Part shown: positions 2,895 through 62,578 of the stretch, piece by piece
Numbering within the stretch: the stretch's first letter is position 1
How the letters are laid out: the number at the start of each line of letters is the position of its first letter
NCBI GenBank assembly: GCA_947525975.1
Contig: CANNVE010000009.1
Coordinates: 43,546 to 107,545 of the forward strand
From: an uncultured Muribaculaceae bacterium
GTDB taxonomy: Bacteria; Bacteroidota; Bacteroidia; Bacteroidales; Muribaculaceae
Length of the DNA stretch: 64,000 nucleotides
Direction of reading: 5' to 3'
The notes under the pieces: model-generated
Told to the model about the DNA's origin: nothing
The model's input: the letters and a program-made list of their open reading frames with translations, nothing else
Database searches by the model: none
Made by a program: the position numbers and the translations under genes

Positions 2895-3965
2895 ATGAAA
2901 CTCAAAATCCTAATGGCCGCAACGGTTGCCGCGGCATCTTGCATCGGCATGTCGGCCAAAGGGCTGCCGGAAGAAAAAGACATGGCGGCATATCTGATGG
3001 TGTATTTCCTTGACTCTGACCACAGCCTGCACTATGCAATAAGCGATGACGGATACACCTTCACCGCCCTCAACGACAACAAGTCCGTGATCTCCGGCGA
3101 CAGCATCGCAGAGCAGCGGGGCATACGCGACCCGCACATATTCCGCGGTCCCGACGGGGCATTCTACATAGCCATGACCGACCTTCACATCTTCGGTCAG
3201 AGAGACGGCCTGCGGGAGAGCCATTGGGAACGCTCCGACGAATACGGCTGGGGCAACAACCGCGGCCTTGTGCTGATGAAATCTGATGATCTGATTGACT
3301 GGAGCCACAGCATCGTGCGCCTCGACAAGCTCTTTCCGGAAGAATACGGCGAGATCGGCTGCGCTTGGGCGCCGGAGGTAACCTATGACCCCGAAGCGGG
3401 AAAGATGATGGTGTATTTCACATTGCGCACAAGGGGCGAAAGGCTCGAAGGCGGAAAACCCGAAGAAAAGAAGACGCGCCTATTCTACGCTTACACCGAC
3501 CCCGACTTCACCACTTTCACCTCCAAGCCCGAGCTGCTCTTCACATATCCCGATCCCAATATACAGGTGCTCGACGCCGACATCATGCGCACTCCCGACG
3601 GCAGATACGTCATGACCTATTGCGCGCAGGAAAACCCCGGAGGCATCAAGATGGCCGTATCCGACAAAATCAACGGCGGATATGAATACCGGCCCGAATG
3701 GATCGACGCCGAGCCGGGCGCCTGCGAGGCGCCGACCGTGTGGAAACGCATAGGCGAGGACAAATGGGTGCTGATGTACGACGTATTCAGCATCAACCCG
3801 CATAATTTCGGATTTGTCGAGACCTCCGACTTCAAGACATTCACGCCCCTCGGCCATTTCAACGACGGAGTGATGAAAACCACTAATTTCTCCAGCCCCA
3901 AGCACGGCGCCGTCGTGCACATCACCAAGGCCGAAGCCGACAGGCTCAAAACCCATTGGAAATGA
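2895..3965 (+). CDS. Glycoside hydrolase family 43-like secreted protein
   Basis: Signal peptide plus five-bladed propeller-type motifs (RDPHIFRGPDGAFYIAMTD, WAPEVTYDPEAGKMMVYFT, CEAPTVWKRIGEDKWVLMYD). Confidence 0.8.
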   Translation: MKLKILMAATVAAASCIGMSAKGLPEEKDMAAYLMVYFLDSDHSLHYAISDDGYTFTALNDNKSVISGDSIAEQRGIRDPHIFRGPDGAFYIAMTDLHIFGQRDGLRESHWERSDEYGWGNNRGLVLMKSDDLIDWSHSIVRLDKLFPEEYGEIGCAWAPEVTYDPEAGKMMVYFTLRTRGERLEGGKPEEKKTRLFYAYTDPDFTTFTSKPELLFTYPDPNIQVLDADIMRTPDGRYVMTYCAQENPGGIKMAVSDKINGGYEYRPEWIDAEPGACEAPTVWKRIGEDKWVLMYDVFSINPHNFGFVETSDFKTFTPLGHFNDGVMKTTNFSSPKHGAVVHITKAEADRLKTHWK

Positions 3966-4011
3966 TCATAACGCCCCAAAAGCCGTAAAAAACCGCCACT
4001 TCTAACCACAG

Positions 4012-4044
4012 AGCCGCCGAGATACTCTCTCGGCGGCTTTTTTT
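4012..4044 (+). terminator. Rho-independent terminator
   Basis: agccgccgaga-tactc-tctcggcggct followed by a T8 tract. Confidence 0.85.
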
Positions 4045-4534
4045 TCGCAAAATACAGTCAATTACGATATGTTATACAGCATACACTCATTGTCATTTCA
4101 AATAATATTTGTAAATTTGCCTTTGTAGACCGCCATAGCAGACCGCCGCAGGCAGAGGCGAGGCTTGATTAAGCCCCCGCTCTGGGGTAAAGCGAAGCGG
4201 TATGTTTTAGACATAATTAAAAAGCGTTTATCCGCGCTGATTCTTGACTGCTTGAAATTCTCGCAAAATTTCGCGTCTATGTCAGGGATTGTGCAACGGT
4301 AGATGCCCGTGGATATGTAATATCATGCATCCGGCAGAATGCCTTGGGAAAGGTATAGCCGGACGCTATTGTTGCATATACAAGCGTGGGCTTCTGCGTT
4401 GCCGTCCGACATAGACAAGGCAATGCGAGAAGCCTCGATTCGTAGGACGGCAACAGATACAGATTCCTACGCTTTTTTCGTACAAACCAATCTAATGCCA
4501 ACGAGAGGAAGACCGCGGCATAAAAATTTACACG

Positions 4535-5560
4535 ATGGTTGATAATGCCAGACAGACTTTTCTTGAAAAATGGTGGAGCATCGCTTTTGCAATAGCGATC
4601 TTGGGAATTGCTGTTGTCACCGTATCCTTGGCCGATAGCCGTGAACTTCCATTGACAATAATTGGTGCGGTTCTTGGTGTGGCAATGACAGTCTTCGCCA
4701 CATTCTTTCTATTCAAGGGACAATCCAAACAGCAAATCGCGCTGCTGGAAGAACAACATCGTATAGAACGAGACCAGGAAAACGAAACAGAGATCTTCAA
4801 GCAGAAACTTAATGCTTACCAAAAGTTTCTTGATGCTCTTTGTAAATATGTAACAACAAAGAGCGATGGGGCACAGTCAGAACTGAAATTCCGAACTGCG
4901 GCTCTTGCCATGCATGGCGACACACAACAACTGACAGCTCTTAATCGAGAGATTTCAGAAATCATAGCTATCTATGATAATGAAGTGCCTGATGATAAGA
5001 TGCTAATACGAGCTCTGTTTTCAATTGCGGAATTATTTGGCAAAGAATTATATCCTGAAAAGACGTTTGTTCGTAACGCTGAATATGAGACTTCCATAGA
5101 GAATCTTGCACATATAATTGACGATAGTGCGTCAAGTTCTGAACTCAGTGAAATAGAGGCTGAGGATAAAGACAGTGAAAAGTCTGATGAGCAAGAGGCT
5201 GAAAACATGGAATCATGGGCACAGAAATTGTCTGAATTAAAATCGAATGGTTGGAATGTTGTGATAGATCCAGTTAAGGATACTATCTCATTGAGCAACT
5301 CTACGGCTCAAAATAATATATCCTTTTATAAAAAAGGCAGATTTTATATTGTTCAGGCGCAAGGCGCAGAAGGAGATGCGGAGTATTCTAAAACTCTTAA
5401 AACACTGCATAAAGGGTCTCGGCGCAGTAACATCTGGTGGCGTGAACTAACTTCACTGCCGAACTATGGTGTCAGCAATGGCCTCAGCAAGGCGGTTGAA
5501 ACCAACCCCAAAGCACGTGCTGTCGTGATTAAGTGGATTGACCGACTGATAAATTTCTAA
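4535..5560 (+). CDS. Membrane-anchored coiled-coil protein of unknown function
   Basis: 341 aa; two N-terminal TM segments (WWSIAFAIAILGIAVVTVSL, LPLTIIGAVLGVAMTVFATFFLF), then charged/coiled region with acidic linker. Confidence 0.6.
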   Translation: MVDNARQTFLEKWWSIAFAIAILGIAVVTVSLADSRELPLTIIGAVLGVAMTVFATFFLFKGQSKQQIALLEEQHRIERDQENETEIFKQKLNAYQKFLDALCKYVTTKSDGAQSELKFRTAALAMHGDTQQLTALNREISEIIAIYDNEVPDDKMLIRALFSIAELFGKELYPEKTFVRNAEYETSIENLAHIIDDSASSSELSEIEAEDKDSEKSDEQEAENMESWAQKLSELKSNGWNVVIDPVKDTISLSNSTAQNNISFYKKGRFYIVQAQGAEGDAEYSKTLKTLHKGSRRSNIWWRELTSLPNYGVSNGLSKAVETNPKARAVVIKWIDRLINF

Positions 5561-14004: not shown

Positions 14005-14037
14005 TTTGTCAAGTTCGACATAAATTCGTAACTTTGC
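14005..14037 (+). promoter_or_regulatory. Bacteroidetes-type promoter upstream of the recombinase-NusG fusion
   Basis: TTTG (14005-14008) - 20 nt - TAACTTTGC (14029-14037), matching the -33 TTTG / -7 TAnnTTTG consensus. Confidence 0.6.
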
Positions 14038-14273
14038 ACTCAGAAAAGTTAAGGGAAGTAACCTATCGGCAAAAGGGCAAAGACCGCAGGGGCGCCCGCC
14101 CAAAGACTTGCGCGTCAGCCTAAATCGCTTTCCGCCAAACAATTCCAGAAGGTGAAAGCCTCCTATAAATATCAGATTTCCGCACCCCTTCCAGGCCACG
14201 AGGCCACAAGGCAGGGGGTCGGGAAGGAATGTGTCTCCGCAACCGCTTATTACATTTCCGCCACGCAGGCTAA

Positions 14274-15704
14274 ATGACTGATTCTCTCGAAAATAGACAC
14301 GATTCAGCCATCGACGCATTTCGGGTCAGGATCGACTGCACGCCCAATCCCGCCTCACGCAAGAGCCTCGGGCAGGCCCTTGACTCATTCCGCCGATTCC
14401 TCGCAGGCTCTGACGCGGCGCTGGCTGACATCGACGAAAGCATGCTCGGCGAATGGGTGTCATGGATGTTTGCCCAAGGCTATTCCCCAAAGACAGTGGC
14501 CTACTACGTCAACCGCCTCTCATCGCTCCACGGCAAAGCCTCGGAAAGCGGCCATCAGGCATTCTCGAGGATAAAAAGCCGCCTGGCCGACACGCAGGCA
14601 GCCCAAGCGCAGAGCCTGGCGCCGGCCGACTGCTTCGACAGGCTCAGGGCGCTTGTGCTGAAAGACTGCTCCAAGAGCCCCCTGCGCCAGCTGGCGAAAG
14701 ACATAGCCCTATTCTCGATCTATGCGGGAGGCCTCCCGCTCGAAGACGTGGCCCAATGCCGCAAGGACGACTACAGGGGCAGCGACGAAGCCGTAAAAGA
14801 AATCGTGGCTCGATACGCTAAGCCGCGAAACAAATACCTCTTCCCGCTCAACCAATCGGCGAAGACACCGGCCCAGACAGCCAGAGCCATAACGGCGCTA
14901 TACGCCGATGCGCTGAAGATGGCCGGATTCGATCAGGCAGCCATAAGCGCCCACTCCCCGATCGACCTATGGATAGCCGTGGCCACGCGGTGCGGACTGC
15001 CCGCCGCCGAAATATCGGCATGCGCGGGAGAGGCCGGAAGCGCCAACCCGATCACCGCCTTCGCGTCGCCGAAAGAAATCGGCTGCGAAGAAATCGGAGA
15101 AATGCGTGGTCGAGTGGCGAACGCGCTGGCCGAAGACCCCGAAAACTGGTACGCCATGCAATTCCGCCCCCACGTCAGCCACAGCATGCTCACCGACAGG
15201 CTCCGATCAGAAGGCATAACCCTCAGGCAGACCTACTACCCCATGGAGCAAATCATGAGGCAGATAGGCAAACGCCTCAAGCCGGAGACAAAGCCCGTGA
15301 TGCCCGGCATCCTATTCTTCAAAAGCAGGGCAACCGAGCTGCCCGACCTCTTCTGCGCCATAGGCGACCTGGCATGGGGATACCGCCAATCGCGCGCCGC
15401 GCGCAGCCCCTACGCAGCCATTCCCGCAGCCGACATCCACGCCTACGCCATGGCCGTGGGCCAATTCACTGACAGCATAGACCGGCATCCTGATGGCACC
15501 ATCGCCATAGAGCCCGGCGACAAAATCGAGATAACAGGCGGCCAGCTCAAAGGCCTCACGGCCATCTTCGAAAAAGAAATCCAAGACACAGACGCTCGCA
15601 TCACCTACCGCCTGCGCCTCACCGCCCAAAACAGCATCACCTGGACAGTCGACCTCGACCCCCGCCTCACCGCCAAGTCACATCAAAATGCCCCCAAAAG
15701 ATAA
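14274..15704 (+). CDS. Fusion of a degenerate tyrosine-recombinase-like domain with NusG-type NGN + KOW domains (UpxY-like antiterminator)
   Basis: N-terminus is core-binding/catalytic integrase-like (FRRFLAGSDAALADIDESMLGEWVSWMFAQGYSPKTVAYYVNRLSSLHGKA; ALFSIYAGGLPLEDVAQCRKDD). C-terminus NWYAMQFRPHVSHSMLTDRLRSEGI...MPGILFFKS is NGN-like, and IEPGDKIEITGGQLKGLTAIF is KOW-like. First gene of the EPS locus. Confidence 0.75.
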   Translation: MTDSLENRHDSAIDAFRVRIDCTPNPASRKSLGQALDSFRRFLAGSDAALADIDESMLGEWVSWMFAQGYSPKTVAYYVNRLSSLHGKASESGHQAFSRIKSRLADTQAAQAQSLAPADCFDRLRALVLKDCSKSPLRQLAKDIALFSIYAGGLPLEDVAQCRKDDYRGSDEAVKEIVARYAKPRNKYLFPLNQSAKTPAQTARAITALYADALKMAGFDQAAISAHSPIDLWIAVATRCGLPAAEISACAGEAGSANPITAFASPKEIGCEEIGEMRGRVANALAEDPENWYAMQFRPHVSHSMLTDRLRSEGITLRQTYYPMEQIMRQIGKRLKPETKPVMPGILFFKSRATELPDLFCAIGDLAWGYRQSRAARSPYAAIPAADIHAYAMAVGQFTDSIDRHPDGTIAIEPGDKIEITGGQLKGLTAIFEKEIQDTDARITYRLRLTAQNSITWTVDLDPRLTAKSHQNAPKR

Positions 15705-15833: not shown

Positions 15834-16718
15834 ATGCTATTATCCATATTCACCCCGACATATAACCGAGCTCATACTCTTGGACGGATATTCAATAGCC
15901 TTTGCATGCAGTCCATAGATGATTTTGAGTGGATAATTATAGATGATGGCTCAACCGACAATACCGAAGATGTTGTATTTAACTTTAAGCGGCAGTCACC
16001 TTTCCTAATAAGATATTACAAAATACCCCACGGCGGGAAACATCGAGCTTATAATGCGGGGCTGAAATTGGCCAATGGAGAATTATTCTTTGTCGTTGAT
16101 TCTGATGATTATCTGACTAAAGACAGCCTCTCGGCCATCTCCTCATCGGTAGATGTCTTGAACGGAAGGAAGGATATCTGTGGCATTATAGCCTTAAAAG
16201 AAAACAGATACGGAGATCTGTATGGCACACCTATGCCCCATGAAGAATAAATCAACTCGTTAAAAGAGTTCTACGACTGCTGCAAAAACGGTGAACGATC
16301 CTTCATTTTTAAGACCGAGATAGCCCGCAAATATCCTTTCCCTGAGATTGAAGGTGAAAATTTTGTCACAGAAAGCGTCGTATATGACCGTCTTGGTAAA
16401 GATTTTGGGTTTATGATTATTAATGAACCTCTCACCATATGCGAATATCAACCAGATGGGCTATCAAGCAATATTTACAGTCTTATGCTCGCCAATCCTG
16501 TAGGGTATATGATTTATCATCATCAAAAAGTTTGCAACAGCACATCAATATACCAGGCATTACGGCACGCATTACGATATGTGGCATTCCGTTCAGCCTC
16601 TAAATCAAGAAGCGAATGGTGTAAATACGGTGGTCAATATCATTGGCTCATAGAATTGTTAACTCCGATTGGTAAAATCGGAGAGTATTATTACAAATAC
16701 AAATGCCACCGGAATTAA
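15834..16718 (+). pseudogene. Glycosyltransferase family 2 interrupted by a single in-frame TAA (16248-16250)
   Basis: ORFs 15834-16250 and 16413-16718 are in the same frame, and the gap (INSLKEFYDCCKNGERSFIFKTEIARKYPFPEIEGENFVTESVVYDRLGKDFGF) is open. Together they match the layout of the intact paralogue at 28692-29564. Confidence 0.8.
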
Positions 16719-17713: not shown

Positions 17714-19243
17714 ATGGAAGAGCGCAATAAGCGTATAGTCAAAAACACAATGGTGTTGTATATCCGTACATTCATCACCATGATTGTCGGGCTCTACACC
17801 GGACGTGTCATGCTCGAAGCTCTCGGCATAGACAACTACGGCATCCAGAATGCTGTGGGCAGCATTGTAGGCTTTTCAAGCATAATAACCGCTGCGATGA
17901 CGCAAGCCGGCAGTCGGTTCATCACATACTCTCTTGGCAAGGACGGCTTGACACGCCAACGAGAAGTATTTGCAACTGTGGTAAACGCCCAGATAATAAT
18001 CGCATTTATATGTGCATTAGTTTTAGAGACTATTGGACTGTGGTGGCTTAATACAGAAGCCAATATACCGAATGGCAGAATGTATGCCGCGAACTGGGTG
18101 CTTCAAACATCTATCATTTCTCTACTAATCTCTTTGGTTACAGTACCCTATCGTTCTTGTATAGTGGCTCACGAATACATGTCAATTTACGCATGGACTA
18201 GCATCGTCGATGTTATTTTGAAGTTGGCGATTGTCTTTGCTATTATGCAGTATGGAGGCGACCGCCTGATCTTATACTCTAATTTAGGCGTCCTTGTCAG
18301 CCTAACCATGACAATCTTTTATTGCTGGTACAGTAGGCACAACTTCCAAGAAGTTCGTTATCGTGCCTATATACACAAGCCATTGTTGAAAGAAATTACT
18401 CAATTCTCCGGATGGAATATGCTAAACACATCTTCCTGGGTAATGTGTACCTCCGGCGTGAACATGCTTGTGAATACTTTTTTTGGTGTCGCATACAATG
18501 CTGCGCGTGGTGTTGCAGGAACAGTAAATGGTGCCATACAAGGTTTTGTCGGTAATCTCACAACCGCGTTCGTCCCTCAAATTACAAAATCATACGCAGC
18601 TAAGGACTTCAACTATTGTTATACCTTGGTCAATAGGGGGATTAGGTATACATGGTTCTTAATGTACATATTTATAGTCCCTGTATGTATCGAAGCTGAT
18701 ACTTTGTTACACTTATGGCTAGTCAAAGTTCCACCAATGGCTGTCATTTTCCTCAGGTTTACAATGTTTGAGTCATTGGCACTTTCGACAGGTCAGTCAC
18801 TTTTAACCTTAATTCAGGCAGACGGAAAGGTGAAGGTATATACCATATTTGCGGCTTTGTATGCCGGCTTGATATTCCCATTGGTATGGATAGCATTTAC
18901 CCTTGGAGCCCCCGTATGGACCACTTACCCGCTTTTTATATTTATTTTCCTAACTATAAACATCATAAGGCTTTGGGCTTTGACAAGAAATACTACCTAT
19001 GATTGGCATACATACATACGTGATGTCCTCAAACCTGGCGTCACCATATCAGTATTGTCATTTGTTATTCCTTTAACAATTTCATTTTATTGGGAACCAT
19101 CCATACTCAGATTTTTTGTATTGAGTTTTATCTCCGCAGTCAATACAGCCAGTGTTATATATGTGTTTGGATTAAGACCTAATGAAAGACATATTATCCG
19201 GGAGAAAGTATCGGAATATTTATCAAAACTATACAATGGGTAA
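17714..19243 (+). CDS. Polysaccharide flippase (Wzx-like, MATE/MOP superfamily)
   Basis: ~12-14 TM protein; NTMVLYIRTFITMIVGLYTGRVMLEALGIDNYGIQNAVGSIVGF. Confidence 0.85.
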   Translation: MEERNKRIVKNTMVLYIRTFITMIVGLYTGRVMLEALGIDNYGIQNAVGSIVGFSSIITAAMTQAGSRFITYSLGKDGLTRQREVFATVVNAQIIIAFICALVLETIGLWWLNTEANIPNGRMYAANWVLQTSIISLLISLVTVPYRSCIVAHEYMSIYAWTSIVDVILKLAIVFAIMQYGGDRLILYSNLGVLVSLTMTIFYCWYSRHNFQEVRYRAYIHKPLLKEITQFSGWNMLNTSSWVMCTSGVNMLVNTFFGVAYNAARGVAGTVNGAIQGFVGNLTTAFVPQITKSYAAKDFNYCYTLVNRGIRYTWFLMYIFIVPVCIEADTLLHLWLVKVPPMAVIFLRFTMFESLALSTGQSLLTLIQADGKVKVYTIFAALYAGLIFPLVWIAFTLGAPVWTTYPLFIFIFLTINIIRLWALTRNTTYDWHTYIRDVLKPGVTISVLSFVIPLTISFYWEPSILRFFVLSFISAVNTASVIYVFGLRPNERHIIREKVSEYLSKLYNG

Positions 19244-29564: not shown

Positions 29565-30678
29565 TCCAATTAGAGTACTTCAGGTGCTCCATGTTCTCAA
29601 TCGCGGCGGCGCTGAGGCTATGGTGATGAATCTTTACCGCAGAATAGACCGATCAAGGGTTCAGTTCGACTTTTTGGTTCACTCTCAGGAACGTGGTCTC
29701 TTCGAAGCCGAGATCGAACAAATGGGTGGCCGTATCTATAGAATTTCACCTTTTAAAGGATATAACCTTATCCCCTACTATAAGGACTGCTTGGATTTTT
29801 TCAAATCCCATCCGGAAATACAGGTTGTGCATGGTCATCTTGGCAGTTGCGCCGCATATTATCTCCTTGCCGCAAAAAAATGTGGGAAATTCACGATAGC
29901 CCATTCTCACTCAGCCGGCAATATCCGTAGTTTCTACGATCTATCATATAAGATATTCTCTTATCCCACTCGTTGGATCGCGGATCAATTGTATGGATGC
30001 TCTACTGAAGCAGGTATCGAACGATATGGAAAAGCCGCTGTGAAAGGGAAAAATTATAGTAATTTCAACAATGCAGTTGACACAGATAGATTCAGATTTG
30101 ATTTAGAGCAAAGAGCAGCTATAAGAAATGAATTTGGAATAAACAAAAACACATTGCTGATAGGTACAGTAGGGAGAGTGACACCCCCAAAAAATCCTTT
30201 TCGCATATATTCAATTTTCAAAGAAATAGTCAGACAGGCTTCCAATGCGGTATGCCTATGGGTTGGCACGGGCGAACTGGAAGATGAAATCAAGAGGCTT
30301 ATTGCCAAGGACAAGTTAGCTCAGAAAATAGTTATGGCTGGTGTGCGCTCGGATATCCCGGCGATAATGTCAGCTCTTGACTGCATGTTATTTCCGTCGC
30401 TTTGGGAAGGGCTTCCGGTATCTGTAATAGAAAGTCAAATGGCAAATTTGCCGTGTGTCCTTTCAACGAACATTAGCAGGGAAACTCAAATTTCAGGCCT
30501 ATTGTCATGGTTCAGTCTCAAAAAATCAGACCAAGACTGGGCTGAGGAAGCTATCGAACTTGCCAATCAACATTTCAATAATCGCAACGACTATTCCTTT
30601 ACACCTCAGAATACGGGTTACGATATAAATAAGACCGTTGAACAACTTATGCAATTTTACGAAAGCCATATCAAATGA
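29536..30678 (+). CDS. Glycosyltransferase family 1/4
   Basis: VLQVLHVLNRGGAEAMVMNLYR; LFPSLWEGLPVSVIESQMANLPCVLS. Confidence 0.92.
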   Translation: MPMSDTKQNNPIRVLQVLHVLNRGGAEAMVMNLYRRIDRSRVQFDFLVHSQERGLFEAEIEQMGGRIYRISPFKGYNLIPYYKDCLDFFKSHPEIQVVHGHLGSCAAYYLLAAKKCGKFTIAHSHSAGNIRSFYDLSYKIFSYPTRWIADQLYGCSTEAGIERYGKAAVKGKNYSNFNNAVDTDRFRFDLEQRAAIRNEFGINKNTLLIGTVGRVTPPKNPFRIYSIFKEIVRQASNAVCLWVGTGELEDEIKRLIAKDKLAQKIVMAGVRSDIPAIMSALDCMLFPSLWEGLPVSVIESQMANLPCVLSTNISRETQISGLLSWFSLKKSDQDWAEEAIELANQHFNNRNDYSFTPQNTGYDINKTVEQLMQFYESHIK

Positions 30679-31574
30679 TACGAACAAAAGCCATTCTGAC
30701 GGACATATACAATTCGAATAAAGTAGGACATCAGCTCACAGATGAGGAATTATACAAACTTCAGAATCATCTGATAAAAATGTACAGAGACATCGAGGCT
30801 GTCTGCAAGAAACACAATTTGGGAGTATGTCTCGCTTACGGAAATGTAATAGGCGCTATGCGTCATGGCGGTTGGATACCTTGGGACGATGACCTTGATG
30901 TCCACATGTCGAGGGAAGACTACGAAAAGTTTCTCTCCATTTACGCAAAGGAGTTGCCTCCACAATATAAGGTTTCATCGTATCTTTCAGAAGGTGGCTC
31001 TATAGCGCGTTTTGCCAAGATTATAGATACATCAACGACTTTCGTTCCGGTAGGTGAAGAGAAAAGTGAGTATACAGGAGTTTTCATTGATATATTCCCA
31101 ATAGACTACGCTCCTGAAAATATTTTTCTGAATAAGATCCGAAAATATTGGGCGTATTTTTTGATGTACACCGCTACTTCTGTAGCACAGGCAAGAACTA
31201 ATTCGAAAGAATATAAGCAAAATATGTTCAAGACTTCGGCTGGACGAACAAATTGGAGATTACGTCAATGTTGGGGATATCTCTTTAATTTCGCGTCACC
31301 CAAAACTTGGCATAGATGGATTGAGAAATTCGCCATTCATAAGAAAAATACCGGCTATTGCCATGTTATCGCCGATCTGGACGTATGCTTCAAAAAAATA
31401 CCGTCCGATTATTATTTCCCATTTAGGACTGTAGATGTCCCGGAATTCGGAAAAATCGATATTCCCAATAAATATGATGATTATCTAAGACTGACATATG
31501 GCGATTGGACAGTTGTCCCTGACGAGAAAGATCGCTGGCATCACTATGTCCAAGAAATCAGCATTCCGGATTAA
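30675..31574 (+). CDS. licD: LicD family phosphocholine transferase
   Basis: CLAYGNVIGAMRHGGWIPWDDDLDVHMSREDYEKF; IDIFPIDYAPEN. Confidence 0.92.
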   Translation: MIRTKAILTDIYNSNKVGHQLTDEELYKLQNHLIKMYRDIEAVCKKHNLGVCLAYGNVIGAMRHGGWIPWDDDLDVHMSREDYEKFLSIYAKELPPQYKVSSYLSEGGSIARFAKIIDTSTTFVPVGEEKSEYTGVFIDIFPIDYAPENIFLNKIRKYWAYFLMYTATSVAQARTNSKEYKQNMFKTSAGRTNWRLRQCWGYLFNFASPKTWHRWIEKFAIHKKNTGYCHVIADLDVCFKKIPSDYYFPFRTVDVPEFGKIDIPNKYDDYLRLTYGDWTVVPDEKDRWHHYVQEISIPD

Positions 31575-31610
31575 CTAACGTATCATTTTGCTTAACAAAC
31601 CTATTTAAAT

Positions 31611-32396
31611 ATGAAATCAACACGTTTCTTCTTGTTATTGACTATTCTATTCATTTCCACTGTGGTTTACGCCCAGGAGGTTGTCAAGCCTTCAACAACA
31701 TCAACTAACAATTGGGGGCAGAAAATGATAAAGTCGCCCTTCGGACTTGGCTTGGATGTACAAACCAAGTACATCTGGCGTGGCATGGAGATGATTACGG
31801 AAGACGCAGCTCCCGTATTGTTCCCCTCTTTCAACTATTCATGGAAAGGCCTCTATGTATACGCAATGGGAGGATATGCAATCAATGGCAAATATGCCGA
31901 GGTTGACCTTGGTGCCAGCTATTCTTGGAATGGCTTTACAATAGGAGTCTATGACTATTATTATCCTACTGTAGATGGTAAGCATGATAAGTATTTGGGT
32001 GGAGGCAAACACACTGGCCATTGGCTTGAAGCGGCCATCAATTTTGCTCCAGAAAAGATACCCTTTACGGCGACTATTAGCAACTTCTTTGCTGGCGCCG
32101 ACAAATATGTCAATTCAAATGGCGAAGAAAAACAGGCTTATTCTACTTATATCGAAGTGGGTACTTATTACGATTTCCTCGACCTTAATCGTATCACTCT
32201 TAACGTGGGGGCTGCGTTCAACAAATCATGCTACAACAATTACGAGCATAATTTTTCGGTATGCAACCTTGAATTAAAATATTCATACATGGTTAAGTTT
32301 AAAAGTGGATGGACTCTACCTCTAAACGTTGCGTACATATACAACCCTGTATTTGACAAATCCTTTGTCAACTTCACCGCAAATTTCGCGTTCTAA
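31611..32396 (+). CDS. Outer-membrane beta-barrel protein (TorF/Gcw_chp-like)
   Basis: Signal peptide (VYAQ); FGLGLDVQTKYIWRGMEMITEDAAPVLFPSFNYSWKGLYV; alternating amphipathic strands, ends in aromatic residue (ANFAF). Confidence 0.6.
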   Translation: MKSTRFFLLLTILFISTVVYAQEVVKPSTTSTNNWGQKMIKSPFGLGLDVQTKYIWRGMEMITEDAAPVLFPSFNYSWKGLYVYAMGGYAINGKYAEVDLGASYSWNGFTIGVYDYYYPTVDGKHDKYLGGGKHTGHWLEAAINFAPEKIPFTATISNFFAGADKYVNSNGEEKQAYSTYIEVGTYYDFLDLNRITLNVGAAFNKSCYNNYEHNFSVCNLELKYSYMVKFKSGWTLPLNVAYIYNPVFDKSFVNFTANFAF

Positions 32397-32399
32397 AGG

Positions 32400-33272
32400 A
32401 TGACGGAAATAATAAGAAACGCAATAATTATGGCGGCCGGGGCATCGTCAAGATTTGTACCTCTGTCTGCGGAAGTACCGAAGGGACTGCTTGAAGTCAA
32501 GGGCGAGATACTCATAGAGCGTCAAATACGTCAACTCCAAGAAGCCGGCATTATAGATATCACTCTAGTCGTCGGCTACAAAGCAGAAATGTTTGAATAC
32601 CTAAAGGAGAAATTTGGAGTAGAAATTGTGTTAAATGAGGATTACTATAGGTATAATAATACGTCATCTTTAGTTCGCGTTTTAGATAAGTTGAGTAATA
32701 CATACATCTGCTCATCAGATAATTATTTCCCCTCAAATGTATTCCAAGGCAACCCAAAGCAAAGCTATTATAGCACTCTGTATTCAGTAGGAGATACTGG
32801 AGAGTACTGTTTAACTATAGACCATGAGGATAATATTACTTCAGTACACGTAGGAGGTCGTGGGGCATGGTATATGGTTGGTCATGCTTATCTCTCTGAA
32901 GACTTTAGCTCCAAATTTAAGGAAATTTTACTACAAGAATATAAAAAGCCAGAAACCAAACTACAGTATTGGGAAGATGTTTATATCAAGTTTATCCATG
33001 AATTGCCGATGATGAAAATTCATAGGTATAATGTGGGTGATATAAACGAGTTTGATTCAATCGATGAGCTCAGGCGCTTTGATGAATCTTATATCTCTGA
33101 TACACGTTCAAGTATCCTCAAATATATAGCATTAGAACTGAAATGTTCGGAATCTTCACTAAGTAACTTCTCCAAAATTTCAAAAACTGGCAACAATTTG
33201 AGTTTCTCCTTTCTTAAGGACAACATCAAATATCTATATGATGACTATTCTAAACAAATATGTCTCCTATGA
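32400..33272 (+). CDS. Nucleotidyltransferase, LicC-like (CTP:phosphocholine cytidylyltransferase-like)
   Basis: NAIIMAAGASSRFVPLSAEVPKGLLEVKGEILIERQIRQLQEAGI; ICSSDNYFPSNVF. Confidence 0.8.
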   Translation: MTEIIRNAIIMAAGASSRFVPLSAEVPKGLLEVKGEILIERQIRQLQEAGIIDITLVVGYKAEMFEYLKEKFGVEIVLNEDYYRYNNTSSLVRVLDKLSNTYICSSDNYFPSNVFQGNPKQSYYSTLYSVGDTGEYCLTIDHEDNITSVHVGGRGAWYMVGHAYLSEDFSSKFKEILLQEYKKPETKLQYWEDVYIKFIHELPMMKIHRYNVGDINEFDSIDELRRFDESYISDTRSSILKYIALELKCSESSLSNFSKISKTGNNLSFSFLKDNIKYLYDDYSKQICLL

Positions 33273-34858
33273 AAACGGCTGTAATTCTTGCGGCACGGAA
33301 AGAGCATGACTCTGAATTACCATATCCGTTGAAGCCATTCACCGATGGCATTTGTCTGATGGATAGGACTATCGGAATTCTTAGAGACAATGGGTATTCC
33401 AATCTAATTATAGTTACTGGATATCGGCACGAACTTTTCAGCAAATACAAGGCTGAAGATGTGAGTATCATAATAAATAATGATTATGAATTTACAGCCT
33501 CAATGGGATCGTTAGCTTTATGCAAAGATGTAATAGATGACGATTTCCTACTTGTCGAAAGTGACACATTCTTCGAATCCTCTGTGGTGCAAAAGTTGAC
33601 TGCCGTCGAAAAAGGCAACTGTATATCTATGACGGAAGAAAGTGGCTCTGGAGATGAATGCTTTGTGGAAACCAAGAATGGGTTTGTCACAAAAATAACC
33701 AAGGATCGTCATCGGGTCTGCAACTTCGAAGGTGAAATGATGGGAGTAACCCGCATCTCATATGATACTTTCGTAAGACTCGTAAACGCATGGGAACATT
33801 CTACAAATCCCTATCTAAATTATGAGTATCTCCTGATGGATGTCACAGATGCTCTTGATAGACCTTACATTAAATTTAAAAATGTAATTTGGGGAGACGT
33901 CGATTGTCAAGAAGATTTCAACAGACTTCAAAATGAAATTTATCGTGCACTTCGAAGAAAAGAAAATCCTTATGATGAGGAAAACCTTCGTAAACATTTG
34001 CAGTCTATTTTCCCGGACAAAAACGTATATACGGCCGAGATATTACAAATCGGAGGCATGAGCAATAAAAACTTCAAGGTTACTTTTGAGAACAAAAGTT
34101 ATGTACTCCGTGTGCCTGGCAATGGTTCAGACGGGATGGTCGAGCGCTCTAATGAAGAATTCAATGCAGGTGTCGCCTGCAATCTTGGCGTAAATCCTCC
34201 AATTCGATATTTCAACCATGGGAATGGAATAAAATTGACCGAATTTATCGAAAACGCTGAAACTTTGAATGCTGCGACCATCCAGCGTCATGATAATATG
34301 AGGAAAATCGCCAAAATATATCGAGTTCTTCACAACTCACATGTCAGGCTCCGCAACGAGTTCAATATATTTCATGAAATAGATAAATATGACTTGTTGA
34401 TGAAAAGGGCCAACGCTGTCATGTATGATGGATGGGAAGAGGTAAAGCCCCAAGTCTTGGCACTTGAAAACCGGCTTAATCATCTTGGTGTTGACCTGAA
34501 ACCATGTCATAATGACGCCTTGTATGAAAATTTCATCAAAGCTACAGATGGCACTGTTTACCTGATTGATTGGGAGTATTCGGGAATGAATGATCCTATG
34601 GCTGATTTTGCGGCACTATTCATTGAGGCTGGATTTGAAAAGGAGAACGAAGACTATATATTAGATGAGTATTTCGAAGGACAAGTACCATTGGATGTTC
34701 CGGAAAAAATCCTTTGCTACCAAATCCTTTGGGATTTCCTATGGTCTCAATGGACAGTGATAAAAGAGGCCAATGGTGATGACTTTGGCACTTATGGACA
34801 AGACAGATTCAATAGAGCAAAACATAATTTAATGAAACTAAACGAATGGAAAAAGTAA
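33260..34858 (+). CDS. Fusion: N-terminal nucleotidyltransferase + C-terminal choline/ethanolamine kinase (LicA-like)
   Basis: N: AVILAARKEHDSELPYPLKPFTDGICLMDRTIGILRDNG; C: MSNKNFKVTFENKSYVLRVPG ... LKPCHNDALYENFIKATDGTVYLIDWEYSGMNDPMADFAALFIEA (Brenner motif HNDxxxxN + IDWEY). Confidence 0.88.
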   Translation: MSPMKTAVILAARKEHDSELPYPLKPFTDGICLMDRTIGILRDNGYSNLIIVTGYRHELFSKYKAEDVSIIINNDYEFTASMGSLALCKDVIDDDFLLVESDTFFESSVVQKLTAVEKGNCISMTEESGSGDECFVETKNGFVTKITKDRHRVCNFEGEMMGVTRISYDTFVRLVNAWEHSTNPYLNYEYLLMDVTDALDRPYIKFKNVIWGDVDCQEDFNRLQNEIYRALRRKENPYDEENLRKHLQSIFPDKNVYTAEILQIGGMSNKNFKVTFENKSYVLRVPGNGSDGMVERSNEEFNAGVACNLGVNPPIRYFNHGNGIKLTEFIENAETLNAATIQRHDNMRKIAKIYRVLHNSHVRLRNEFNIFHEIDKYDLLMKRANAVMYDGWEEVKPQVLALENRLNHLGVDLKPCHNDALYENFIKATDGTVYLIDWEYSGMNDPMADFAALFIEAGFEKENEDYILDEYFEGQVPLDVPEKILCYQILWDFLWSQWTVIKEANGDDFGTYGQDRFNRAKHNLMKLNEWKK

Positions 34859-36366
34859 CAAATAAGACCGGCAGAATTGACTGGATCATAACAATTCTTC
34901 CTTTGGCCTTAATCTTGGCTCTGTGCACAACCTTTATGGTATGGCCAGAGAGATCCAACATAATACTCGGCCAGATTCGATTCTTTTTTGGAGATACACT
35001 CGGCACATACTATCTGATAATTGGATTGGGAATCTTTTTGGTATCACTCTTCCTATCCTTTTCAAAATATGGTGATATAGTTCTCGGAAACAAGAATGAA
35101 AAACCACAATACTCATTCTTTACTTGGGGGGCTATGATGTTTACAGCTGGCCTGGCTGCCGACATTCTCTTCTATTCTTTTTCTGAATGGTTAATGTATG
35201 CGGCAGATCCGAGAATGACTGAATTAGGAGGTATTTATGAATGGGCAGGAGTGTTCCCGGTATTTCATTGGAGCCTTATCCCATGGGGATTCTATCTGGT
35301 GCTCGCTGTTGCTTTTGGTTTTATGCTCCATGTCAGAAAGCGTGAAAGACAGAAATATTCAGAAGCTTGTCGCCCGATTTTGGGTAGATACACTGATGGC
35401 TGGTTAGGTCGTTTAATTGATCTATTGGCGGTCTTCGCCCTCATTGCTGGCACTGCAACAACTTTTTCCGTTGCAACACCACTCATGACAAGTATTATAA
35501 ATGAACTTTTCGATGTTTCAATAAATCCCACATATCTTACCATAGGCATTCTGATTCTTACATGTTGTATATATACCTTTGCGCTTCTTCACGGCTTTAA
35601 AGGCATTGGAATATTGGCAAAGGTTTGTGTATATATGTTCTTCGGTTTGCTCACTTATGTATTGTTATTCGGAGGAGAAACAAAATATATTATCGAAAAT
35701 GGAGTCTCTTCATTAGGCAAAATGCTACAAAACTTTTTTGAACTTTCTACATATACTGATCCACATAGGACAACGTCTTTCCCACAGAACTGGACGATTT
35801 ACTATTGGGCCTACTGGATGGTTTGGTGTGTGGCAGCCCCTTTCTTTATCGGAGGAATCTCTCGTGGCCGAACTATTAAACAAACTATTCTTGGAGGATA
35901 TGTATTTGGTGTAGGATCTACAATTATCAGTTTTATAATTCTCGGTAATTATTCAATGGGACTCCAAACAAGCGGGGCTGCAGACTTCCTTACTGAATAT
36001 ACAACTAACGGAGACACATATTCAATAATAATTGACATTATACGAACCATTCCTTGGTCTCCATTAATTCTACTAATTGTCCTTTTGACAATGTTTGCTT
36101 TTTACAGCACATCATTTGACTCAATAGCACTAACAGCCTCCACTTATAGCTATAGAAAACTTGGTGAAAAAGAATTACCAAATCGAGGTATTCAGTTGAT
36201 GTGGTGTATTCTCCTGATATTACTTCCTATTGCACTTGTATTTGCCCAAAGTTCTATGAACAATCTTCAGACAGTAAGTATCATAGCGGCATTCCCAATA
36301 GGAATTATAATGGTTATGATTGTTTTGTCGCTTATTAAGGATGCCAACGAGTACATCAACGAATAA
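34846..36366 (+). CDS. BCCT-family choline/betaine transporter
   Basis: ~12 TMs; FFTWGAMMFTAGLAADILFYSFSEWLMYAADPR, YYWAYWMVWCVAAPFFIGGISRGRTIKQTILG. Confidence 0.9.
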   Translation: MEKVTNKTGRIDWIITILPLALILALCTTFMVWPERSNIILGQIRFFFGDTLGTYYLIIGLGIFLVSLFLSFSKYGDIVLGNKNEKPQYSFFTWGAMMFTAGLAADILFYSFSEWLMYAADPRMTELGGIYEWAGVFPVFHWSLIPWGFYLVLAVAFGFMLHVRKRERQKYSEACRPILGRYTDGWLGRLIDLLAVFALIAGTATTFSVATPLMTSIINELFDVSINPTYLTIGILILTCCIYTFALLHGFKGIGILAKVCVYMFFGLLTYVLLFGGETKYIIENGVSSLGKMLQNFFELSTYTDPHRTTSFPQNWTIYYWAYWMVWCVAAPFFIGGISRGRTIKQTILGGYVFGVGSTIISFIILGNYSMGLQTSGAADFLTEYTTNGDTYSIIIDIIRTIPWSPLILLIVLLTMFAFYSTSFDSIALTASTYSYRKLGEKELPNRGIQLMWCILLILLPIALVFAQSSMNNLQTVSIIAAFPIGIIMVMIVLSLIKDANEYINE

Positions 36367-59442: not shown

Positions 59443-59708
59443 GAGGTGCCCAGAACAGGAACACTAATATTGAATCGTAATGAATCGCTGTCAATTTTGG
59501 CTATTTTTGAGTCTAATTTATAAATCGCTGATTATTAGCAGTAAATGACTATGATGAATTAAACTGAAGCGTAAGTGAATTTGATTCTGATTTGTTAAAG
59601 TTCAGAACTTGCTGACAGAACGCTGACAAAAGTTGTTGTATATATGAGAGGGTATTATTACCTTTGTATCAGGATAGTAAAACATGTCGAATCAAAACAT
59701 TCTCTCCT

Positions 59709-61061
59709 ATGGCAACAATCAAAAGAGCCTTATCGGCGAAAGTAAACGCTTCCGGACGTGCTGAGATTCTTCTCCGCGTATCCGTTTCGCATAGCGTTTC
59801 CCACCGTATCAAGAGTGGGCTGTATATCTCTGCCGACCGCTTCAAAGATGGCAAATTCGCAAATCCGCGTGACCCGGAAGGGAAGCGTGAAGTGCGCGAG
59901 GTGCAGGATAAGTTGGAAAGCATTGAGAAGTTCCTCATCCGCTTGTGTGAGGATAATCCGGTTGAAAAAGTGACGAAAGATTTCGTTCTAGCACAGCTGG
60001 AGTCATTCCTCAATCCACCGAAAGAGGAAACTGTAGTAGTGCCAGAGGTGTCGTTCTTTGATATATTCGAGGATTATATCGCCAAGAAAAATATTTCGGA
60101 GTGGCGTATCAAGCATCTTCGTGTCTTGAAACGTGCACTAATGCGCTACGAACTATATGTGCAAGCCAACGGCAACAGAAAATATAAGATGAAACTTGAT
60201 GAGTTTACGGTTGATGATGTCAATAAGTTTGAGAAATTTCTGCGCTCGGAGCATCTTATCTACATGAAATATCCGAAAATTTATGATGCTATTCCGGCTG
60301 ACACTCATTCCCAGCGAAAGAAACCTAAGCCACATCCAAAGGGCGACAACACTATTATCGGCCTTTTCGGACTAATGAGGGCGTTCTATCGCTGGTGTCG
60401 TGAGCAGGATATGACCACAAATGATCCGTTTGCTAAATACAACGGCAAGACTACTGAGCGATACGGCACACCATATTACATTACCATCGAGGAACGCGAT
60501 AAGATTGCTGATTTCGATTTATCGGCGAATCCATCACTGGAGGCACAACGGGATATTTTTATTTTTCAGTGCCTTATCGGATGTCGAGTGTCTGACTTGT
60601 TATCGATGACACACGACAGCATCATAAACGGTGCAATCGAATATATGCCGCAGAAAACAGCAGGAGAAAGGCCGCAGGTGGTTCGCGTGCCACTGAATAC
60701 CCGAGCATTGGCACTCGTCGAAAAATACAAAGACCGCGAAGGTCTGAATGTGAAACTATTTCCGTTCATAAGTTCGCAGAAATACAATGTCGCCATCAAG
60801 AAAATATTCAAGACCTGCGGCGTAACGCGGATGGTGACGATACTTAATCCCACCACTGGAAAAGAGGAGAAACGGTCCATTGACGAAATCGCCAGCAGCC
60901 ACCTCGCCCGACGCACCTTCATCGGCAACCTCTACAAGAAAGTCAAAGACCCGAATCTTGTCGGCTCACTCAGCGGCCACACCGAAGGCAGCCGCGCCTT
61001 CGCACGCAACCGCGACATCGACGAAGACATGAAGAAGGAACTTGTCGGGTTGTTAGAATAA
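59709..61061 (+). CDS. Tyrosine-recombinase-family integrase with Asn at the expected catalytic Tyr
   Basis: Arm-binding N-terminus (MATIKRALSAKVNASGRAEILLRVSVS); CLIGCRVSDLLSM (Arg I); SSHLARRTFIGNLY (H-x-x-R); SGHTEGSRAFARNRDID where Y is expected in the RYR motif. Confidence 0.88.
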   Translation: MATIKRALSAKVNASGRAEILLRVSVSHSVSHRIKSGLYISADRFKDGKFANPRDPEGKREVREVQDKLESIEKFLIRLCEDNPVEKVTKDFVLAQLESFLNPPKEETVVVPEVSFFDIFEDYIAKKNISEWRIKHLRVLKRALMRYELYVQANGNRKYKMKLDEFTVDDVNKFEKFLRSEHLIYMKYPKIYDAIPADTHSQRKKPKPHPKGDNTIIGLFGLMRAFYRWCREQDMTTNDPFAKYNGKTTERYGTPYYITIEERDKIADFDLSANPSLEAQRDIFIFQCLIGCRVSDLLSMTHDSIINGAIEYMPQKTAGERPQVVRVPLNTRALALVEKYKDREGLNVKLFPFISSQKYNVAIKKIFKTCGVTRMVTILNPTTGKEEKRSIDEIASSHLARRTFIGNLYKKVKDPNLVGSLSGHTEGSRAFARNRDIDEDMKKELVGLLE

Positions 61062-61114
61062 TTAATTTGCTGAGATAATACGCTGAAAATCGGAGAAAAA
61101 TTCGTAAATTTGTA

Positions 61115-62578
61115 TTGCTGAATATGACCAAGAATGAACTTGTAGCAAAGCTACGCGACATAGAATGGGAAGATTTTGAAGTAAAAGAAGCAAAATCAGA
61201 ACTGCCGAAGACTATTTGGGAAACTGTAAGCGCATTCTCAAATACCTCTGGTGGTTGGATTGTACTCGGTGTCAAACAATCCGGCAAGACTTTTGAGATA
61301 CAGGGAGTCGGAAATATCGAAAAACTTGAACAGGATTTTCTAACTACGCTCCGCTCTGAGAAGTTTAATCAAAGATTGGCGGTAACATCTAAATCATATA
61401 ATATAGATGGCAAACGACTATTGGCATTCTATGTGCCGGAAGTTGAGATGAAGCCTGTCTATTACAACAATCCGGCCAACACGTTCATTCGCATGGGAAG
61501 CGGCGACCAACGGGCTACAGAAGGAGAAATACGGGCAATGTTCCGTGACCAATCGTTTGGCAAGAAAACGGAGGAGACAATCCCTGAAAGTGGGATTGAA
61601 ATGCTCAACCTTAATACTCTACGCAGCTATCGTTACGCTTTAAGCCAGACAAGCAACCTCCTCGAATATCGGGATGTTGATGATGTTGAGTTTTGTGAAC
61701 ACGTAAACATCACCAACAAGGGATTGCTCACATATGCTGGATTGCTGATGTTTGGAAAGGCTCCTTATGTGTTGAGATATGTACCGACATTTTGCGTTGA
61801 TTACATCGAGATTCCCGCTCCGACTATTCAGGAGGCAGAGGTGCGATATACCTATCGCATCCCCGAGCAGGAAAACATCTGGGAGGCAGTGCAGATTATA
61901 CTTCGCCGCTTTCGGACATTGGTGGATGCCCCCATACATATCAAGGATGATGGCTTCGCAACCACTGACGAAAGCCAATATAACGTACTGCGCGAAGCAT
62001 TGGCAAACATGGTCATGCACTGCGACTACTTCGATTCAATGCGATCCTGTATCCGTGTGTATACAGACCACATCGAGTTTATGAATGGCGGTTGCTTCCC
62101 ACTCCCAGTGAAGGACATCATCGGAAAGGTTTATTCAAAGTTGCGCAACCCGACTCTTGCAAAATTGTTCCGTTATGTCGGCATTGCGGAAAATGCGGGA
62201 TATGGCATGAACAAACTTGCAAGTTGGGAAAAATTGACAGGAACCACCCCCTCAATAACGAGTGACCGCACTTACGCTACAGTTTCATTCTCGTTGAAAT
62301 CCGCCATACAACGCAGGAATGACAATGAGGGTAAAAATGAGGGTAAAAATGAGGGTAAAAATGAGGGTAAAAATGAGGGTAAAAAATTAACTCCTCGTCA
62401 GCGATCTATTTTTAAACTTATTGAGCAAAACCCCAATATAAGTATGGTTGAAATGGCCAATCAATTAGCCGTTTCCATCAGTACAATAGAAAGAGAAATA
62501 CCGAAAATGGCCAATGTCATCAGACATGTTGGCCCAAAGAATGGCGGTTATTGGGAAATACTAACCTTAACAAAATAA
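61115..62578 (+). CDS. AlbA_2 / Schlafen-like putative transcriptional regulator with C-terminal HTH
   Basis: EDFEVKEAKSELPKTIWETVSAFSNTSGGWIVLGVKQSGKTFEIQGV; REALANMVMHCDYF; C-terminal ISMVEMANQLAVSISTIEREIPKM HTH. Confidence 0.88.
   Translation: MLNMTKNELVAKLRDIEWEDFEVKEAKSELPKTIWETVSAFSNTSGGWIVLGVKQSGKTFEIQGVGNIEKLEQDFLTTLRSEKFNQRLAVTSKSYNIDGKRLLAFYVPEVEMKPVYYNNPANTFIRMGSGDQRATEGEIRAMFRDQSFGKKTEETIPESGIEMLNLNTLRSYRYALSQTSNLLEYRDVDDVEFCEHVNITNKGLLTYAGLLMFGKAPYVLRYVPTFCVDYIEIPAPTIQEAEVRYTYRIPEQENIWEAVQIILRRFRTLVDAPIHIKDDGFATTDESQYNVLREALANMVMHCDYFDSMRSCIRVYTDHIEFMNGGCFPLPVKDIIGKVYSKLRNPTLAKLFRYVGIAENAGYGMNKLASWEKLTGTTPSITSDRTYATVSFSLKSAIQRRNDNEGKNEGKNEGKNEGKNEGKKLTPRQRSIFKLIEQNPNISMVEMANQLAVSISTIEREIPKMANVIRHVGPKNGGYWEILTLTK
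62324..62383 (+). repeat. Five tandem 12-bp repeats (aatgagggtaaa) encoding (NEGK)5
   Basis: Direct reading: NEGKNEGKNEGKNEGKNEGK. Confidence 0.97.

Follow-up and report, generated by a model that had tools for sequence, protein, structure and literature searches.

The window, a stretch of 64,000 nucleotides from an uncultured member of the Muribaculaceae, contains a single uninterrupted reading frame at 14274-15704, with an in-frame TAA directly 5' of its ATG. The product of this gene is one polypeptide in which a tyrosine-recombinase fold is fused to an NGN-KOW antiterminator of the UpxY/RfaH type (Table 1). Stand-alone UpxY proteins have a size of about 180 aa, and residues 1-286 of the 476-aa fusion protein form an extra domain pair. 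The genes downstream encode glycosyltransferases, a pyruvyltransferase, an EpsG-type polymerase, LicD together with choline genes, a sugar transferase and a DegT aminotransferase; a flippase-like membrane protein at 17714 was named from its translation and has no Pfam match. The first glycosyltransferase gene (15834-16718) is interrupted by a single in-frame TAA (16248-16250) in an otherwise open frame, which may mean either that the gene is broken or that the sequence contains an error. The genes for LicD, a nucleotidyltransferase, a choline kinase and a BCCT choline transporter at 30675-36366 suggest, from their predicted products, that the polysaccharide may bear phosphocholine. At 59664-62578 the window also holds a separate integrase gene (PF13102 and PF00589), followed by a gene for a Schlafen/AlbA_2 protein.

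Table 1. Features of the fusion locus, in coordinates of the window
Feature	Position	Strand	Description
Promoter, Bacteroidetes type	14005-14036	+	TTTG - 20 nt - TAACTTTG; pattern match
Untranslated leader	14043-14273	+	About 230 nt; start inferred from promoter position
Conserved leader element	14165-14232	+	Hairpin followed by GAAGAATTGT-like tail; proposed antiterminator loading site
Fusion gene	14274-15704	+	Inactivated tyrosine-recombinase domain and UpxY-type NGN-KOW antiterminator, 476 aa
SAM-like (core-binding-like) domain of recombinase half	14307-14591	+	Residues ~12-106; Pfam PF13102, model helices
Catalytic-like domain	14622-15131	+	Residues ~117-286; lacks catalytic residues and beta-hairpin
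NGN domain	15141-15458	+	Residues ~290-395; Pfam PF02357, NCBIfam UpxY, model
KOW domain	15510-15677	+	Residues ~413-468; RfaH/NusG/SPT5 profile matches, modelled as beta structure
Polysaccharide operon, presumed target	15834-40696	+	Same strand as fusion gene, 25 kb

The tyrosine-recombinase fold that had been proposed for the N-terminal half is found consistently by Pfam, by profile comparison with PDB sequences, by AlphaFold2 and by Foldseek, and the NusG-type assignment of the C-terminal half is likewise borne out, with an NGN domain recognized by Pfam and matches to UpxY, NusG and RfaH from profile and Foldseek searches. In the N half, Pfam Phage_int_SAM_5 matches residues 26-93 (E = 8e-6); in the C half, the NusG NGN model matches residues 291-354 (E = 2e-4, or 6e-5 if tested alone). 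The NCBIfam UpxY model (NF033644) matches residues 292-435 with E = 1.5e-14, at scores below its curated cut-off of 100 bits (54 bits with the whole protein, 57.5 bits when the C half is taken by itself). A profile of 51 relatives, compared with PDB sequences, has matches to Cre in residues 9-171 (E about 1e-5) and to NusG in residues 290-451 (E = 6e-8). AlphaFold2 gave a confident model of both halves in one chain, as the check suggested with the original prediction had envisaged (full-length protein, pLDDT 87, pTM 0.77; N half alone, pLDDT 93, pTM 0.89); in this single model the KOW part is a beta structure of lower confidence. For the full model, the best Foldseek match is RfaH in a transcription complex (E = 5.7e-7), followed by NusG and Cre, and the N half alone retrieves Cre, lambda Int, Tn1549 Int, YopR and XerH. 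TM-scores of the N half against DNA-bound recombinases are low (0.3-0.4), possibly because its two domains are set at a different angle to each other. As a separate observation, the N part of PDB 9i5v chain 14 (401 aa, named RaiA) matches the recombinase profile, and this chain is possibly another fusion of an Xer-like domain, in that case with a ribosome factor.

None of the catalytic residues of a tyrosine recombinase (R-K-(H/Y)xxR-H-Y) is present in the fusion protein. We aligned it with 22 active integrases from the same bacterial family; one row is truncated, and all the others carry R, K, R, H and Y. In this alignment, Arg I corresponds to G152, Arg II to I230, the His after Arg II to D231, the His of GxGH to E253 and Tyr to A262, and the beta-hairpin Lys is deleted. 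The residue-by-residue comparison agrees with the earlier reading that the catalytic residues have been lost; no intact R-HxxR-Y set was found elsewhere, and the NGN domain is present in the C half. The loss extends to the relatives: across 60 fusion proteins Arg I is kept in 4, the hairpin Lys in 0, Arg II in 14 and Tyr in 1, and none of the 60 has a complete catalytic set.

These relatives come from 60 fusion loci in 48 of the 247 Muribaculaceae genomes sampled, and they are 19-48% identical to the protein in the window. Their recombinase halves form one clade relative to 37 active integrases (support 100/99), and a single fusion event is therefore uncontradicted. Outside the Muribaculaceae, no fusions were listed in samples of 393 genomes from the order and 396 from the phylum, which are non-exhaustive and in which very divergent fusions might escape the profile; there the profile meets either integrases, about 400 aa long, or UpxY proteins, with about 185 aa, and those relatives of the N half that were checked appear active. 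The locus L072 had been considered a pre-fusion state with two genes and was rejected as such, being a frameshifted fusion in which the first of the two frames ends with the beginning of the NGN domain (RWYAMFMR); the fusion gene occupies 3586-5304, and the frameshift that splits it lies inside this domain. The genomic setting is also shared. Of the 45 other loci in which the downstream sequence extends for at least 3 kb, 37 have same-strand polysaccharide genes after the fusion gene, and such a gene lies upstream in only two loci. The originally proposed position of the gene, first in a polysaccharide locus, is supported. The host genome encodes a single housekeeping NusG and lacks a standalone UpxY; a UpxY-like match on its contig 15 was discarded, being a housekeeping NusG that adjoins rplK and rplA. 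We hold the architecture and the existence of the fusion family with high confidence, and no fusion protein of this type is described in the literature that we searched (open-licence PMC text).

The predicted promoter of the fusion gene follows the consensus of Bacteroidetes promoters. No inverted repeats were found flanking it, so it looks fixed in orientation. A motif of approximately AGGGGGAAGAGAAGAATTGT, unnoticed in the original prediction, lies upstream of most fusion genes and corresponds to the 3' side of a hairpin, whose arms at the window locus (14185-14192 and 14210-14217) form 7 of 8 pairs; the whole element ends 41 nt upstream of the fusion gene. Since the segments were picked by the 3' motif, the 5' arm was unselected. 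RNAalifold folds 28 leaders into an 8-bp helix with at least one double change at each of the 8 pairs, and 89% of the cells in this helix are paired versus 79% in shuffles. The covariation is 0.51 compared with 0.32 in shuffles, none of which reached the observed value in 500 trials, and it does not exceed 0.26 under sliding. In the host genome, a covariance model of the element, which includes the window leader among its 28 training rows, has a single match, at 14165-14232 (E = 2e-10). In 198 family genomes, 20 of its 25 matches belong to fusion genes, and three of these 20 fall outside the training rows (L039, L040 and a contig-end locus in genome G034). Four of the five matches without a fusion gene are probably due to chance. 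The other, on the minus strand of L165 in genome G008 (about 1501-1568, E = 1.3e-5), is a convincing leader hairpin that heads a glycosyltransferase gene; no fusion gene adjoins it and no full-length fusion is listed in G008, and it may be an orphan leader or a target in trans. The tail motif has no good match in 12 of the 60 upstream regions, partly through wrong or missing gene starts or contig ends. An outer stem (TTTCCGA/TCGGAAA) was rejected as a general part of the hairpin, being present in some leaders only. The window leader has no Rfam match, and no clear intrinsic terminator was found on its plus strand.

We read this element as the probable UpxY loading site, by analogy with the LoaP hairpin and the RfaH ops element. 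By eye, the leader of a standalone UpxY gene (L139) also carries a hairpin followed by AGAAGAATTGTC, with similar elements in L136, L148, L143 and L144, and because some standalone UpxY genes have such a hairpin, recruitment is probably of the ordinary UpxY type; on these standalone leaders the covariance model gives one weak match, at L144 (E = 0.16). A limited literature search found no description of a UpxY loading hairpin, and the covarying hairpin offers a concrete candidate for the loading site of UpxY-type antiterminators.

To what end the recombinase half is retained can be approached from the pattern of its conservation. The original prediction saw in it a DNA-binding module that targets the antiterminator to its locus, and the fold itself, together with dead recombinases that do bind DNA, such as MrpR/YopR (PMC10516654) and TnsF (PMC10293859), is compatible with a sequence-specific module of this kind. 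The surface of the domain argues otherwise. The median net charge of the catalytic-like part is 0 in the fusions versus +12 in active relatives, and that of the SAM-like part +1 versus +5; for the 17 alignable columns with a basic residue in active enzymes, the median proportion of fusions that keep one is 21%, so that by this alignment-based estimate the basic DNA-binding surface has been lost. The hairpin in the leader, together with its GAAGAATTGT-like tail, is moreover a simpler candidate for locus targeting: it provides the UpxY half with its own target, similar to that found at some standalone UpxY genes, which have no recombinase half. We thus regard DNA targeting by the dead half as improbable. 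The hydrophobic core behaves differently: 86% of 99 hydrophobic columns are kept in the fusions, W233 is invariant, and F190, A237 and V281 are kept in at least 90%. The fold is therefore constrained and the DNA-clamping surface apparently unconstrained, which argues against DNA targeting and for a protein-contact or regulatory role, a reading based on charge, conservation and exclusion. The same pattern, at about 20% identity, makes it very improbable that the half is an idle relic, folded and functionless. The recombinase half does diverge faster, its median pairwise identity being 20% as opposed to 30% for the UpxY half, as would be expected of a relic, but 58 of the 60 proteins exceed 400 aa and L072 is the single clearly frameshifted copy, though a few frames contain stops. 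The union of a dead recombinase with a UpxY-type antiterminator, as originally described, is conserved as a family, which indicates that the dead half is kept under constraint. There is practically no chance that the fusion is an artefact of assembly or annotation joining two genes: integrase and UpxY genes are sometimes neighbors in other families (for example, L135-L138), but 60 homologous fusion loci in 48 genomes, forming one clade, and one confident two-part model refute this explanation.

A role at invertible promoters has to be weighed against the same evidence. Perfect inverted repeats of at least 15 bp, mostly ATCTCTTnnnAAGAGAT, surround the promoter region of 20 of the 60 fusion genes, compared with 0-1 in shuffles and 0 of 54 in a downstream control. 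L039 and L040 come from two genomes, and the segment is inverted in one relative to the other, with both flanks unchanged; in L033 and L056 an active integrase is encoded directly upstream of the fusion gene. A layout of integrase, invertible promoter and antiterminator has been described at Bacteroidales capsule loci (PMC12118408, PMC12632263, PMC13114119). The dead recombinase might accordingly pair with an active invertase or occupy the repeats, biasing ON/OFF switching, and this would tie inversion to antitermination. However, the other 40 fusion genes, including that of the window, have no such repeat pair in the examined sequence (cut by contig ends in some cases) and still keep the domain, and the surface with which it would contact DNA is lost; we find this role unlikely. 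Two other contigs of the host genome (46 and 49, loci L114 and L115) carry ATCTCTTGGCAAGAGAT-type palindromes near their ends, one of them directly upstream of a small lipoprotein-like gene, and these may mark an invertible element that broke the assembly.

We consider it reasonably probable that the fusion protein is a processive antiterminator of UpxY/RfaH type, specific to its locus, with a dead tyrosine recombinase as N-terminal extension, working as follows. RNA polymerase would start at the promoter and transcribe the leader, where the hairpin and tail would load the NGN-KOW half onto the elongating enzyme. The polymerase so modified would ignore termination signals both in the leader of the fusion gene and across the polysaccharide operon. 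The recombinase half would no longer recombine and probably no longer grip DNA; most likely it acts by protein contact, through oligomerization, autoinhibition, or contact with the polymerase or with other antiterminators, and it perhaps restricts cross-talk among polysaccharide loci, the function of UpxZ elsewhere. UpxZ is a cross-locus inhibitor of UpxY. The host genome has no match to it (PF06603) and only 1 of 198 family genomes has one, which makes a built-in replacement conceivable; the recombinase half possibly stands in for the almost wholly missing UpxZ. We suggest only tentatively, as an idea with a modest chance of being right, that a dead recombinase has been domesticated as a locus-specific control domain that replaces UpxZ, the protein activating its own polysaccharide operon and restraining others. 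If this is true, it would constitute a distinct class of antiterminator, with both activities in one polypeptide. The dozens of divergent fusion copies amount to a natural series of mutants.

Among known systems, the closest is UpxY of Bacteroides capsule loci (NF033644), also an NGN-KOW protein that heads the polysaccharide operon it presumably serves, with a leader hairpin of similar plan in some standalone genes. UpxY has about 185 aa and no N-terminal domain, in contrast to the window protein with its dead recombinase. In Bacteroides, upxZ usually comes directly after upxY (PMC12632263), whereas it is almost absent from Muribaculaceae genomes. RfaH on a paused transcription complex is the best fold match of the fusion protein, but RfaH acts in trans at the ops elements of several operons, and the leader element of the fusion gene occurs once in the host genome, at this gene. 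The C-terminal domain of RfaH is helical in its autoinhibited state and refolds; the KOW part of the fusion protein is a beta structure in the one AlphaFold2 model, at lower confidence. LoaP depends on an RNA hairpin within its operon leader (PMC12691694); this hairpin is of the UNCG type, unlike that of the fusion gene, and both RfaH and LoaP are single-part proteins.

For the N-terminal half, a parallel exists in MrpR (YopR) of prophage SPbeta, a tyrosine-recombinase fold that has no recombinase function and controls transcription (PMC10516654), and which appears in the Foldseek search of this half. MrpR is a stand-alone DNA-binding repressor that keeps Lys and Tyr (PMC10516654), whereas the fusion protein has lost Lys, Tyr and the basic surface and is joined to an antiterminator. 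In TnsF of Tn6022-like transposons, an inactivated tyrosine-recombinase domain has likewise been co-opted for another job (PMC10293859), but it chooses the DNA target for a transposase and has no antiterminator part. The capsule layout of integrase, invertible promoter and UpxY is reproduced in L033 and L056 with the same parts in the same order, the fusion gene replacing upxY; the window locus differs in having no inverted repeats. In that layout the recombinase is active and separate, and the fusion family adds a second, dead one within the antiterminator. Recombinase and antiterminator, which are often neighbors at Bacteroidales capsule loci, have thus been merged in one family, with the loss of recombinase chemistry.
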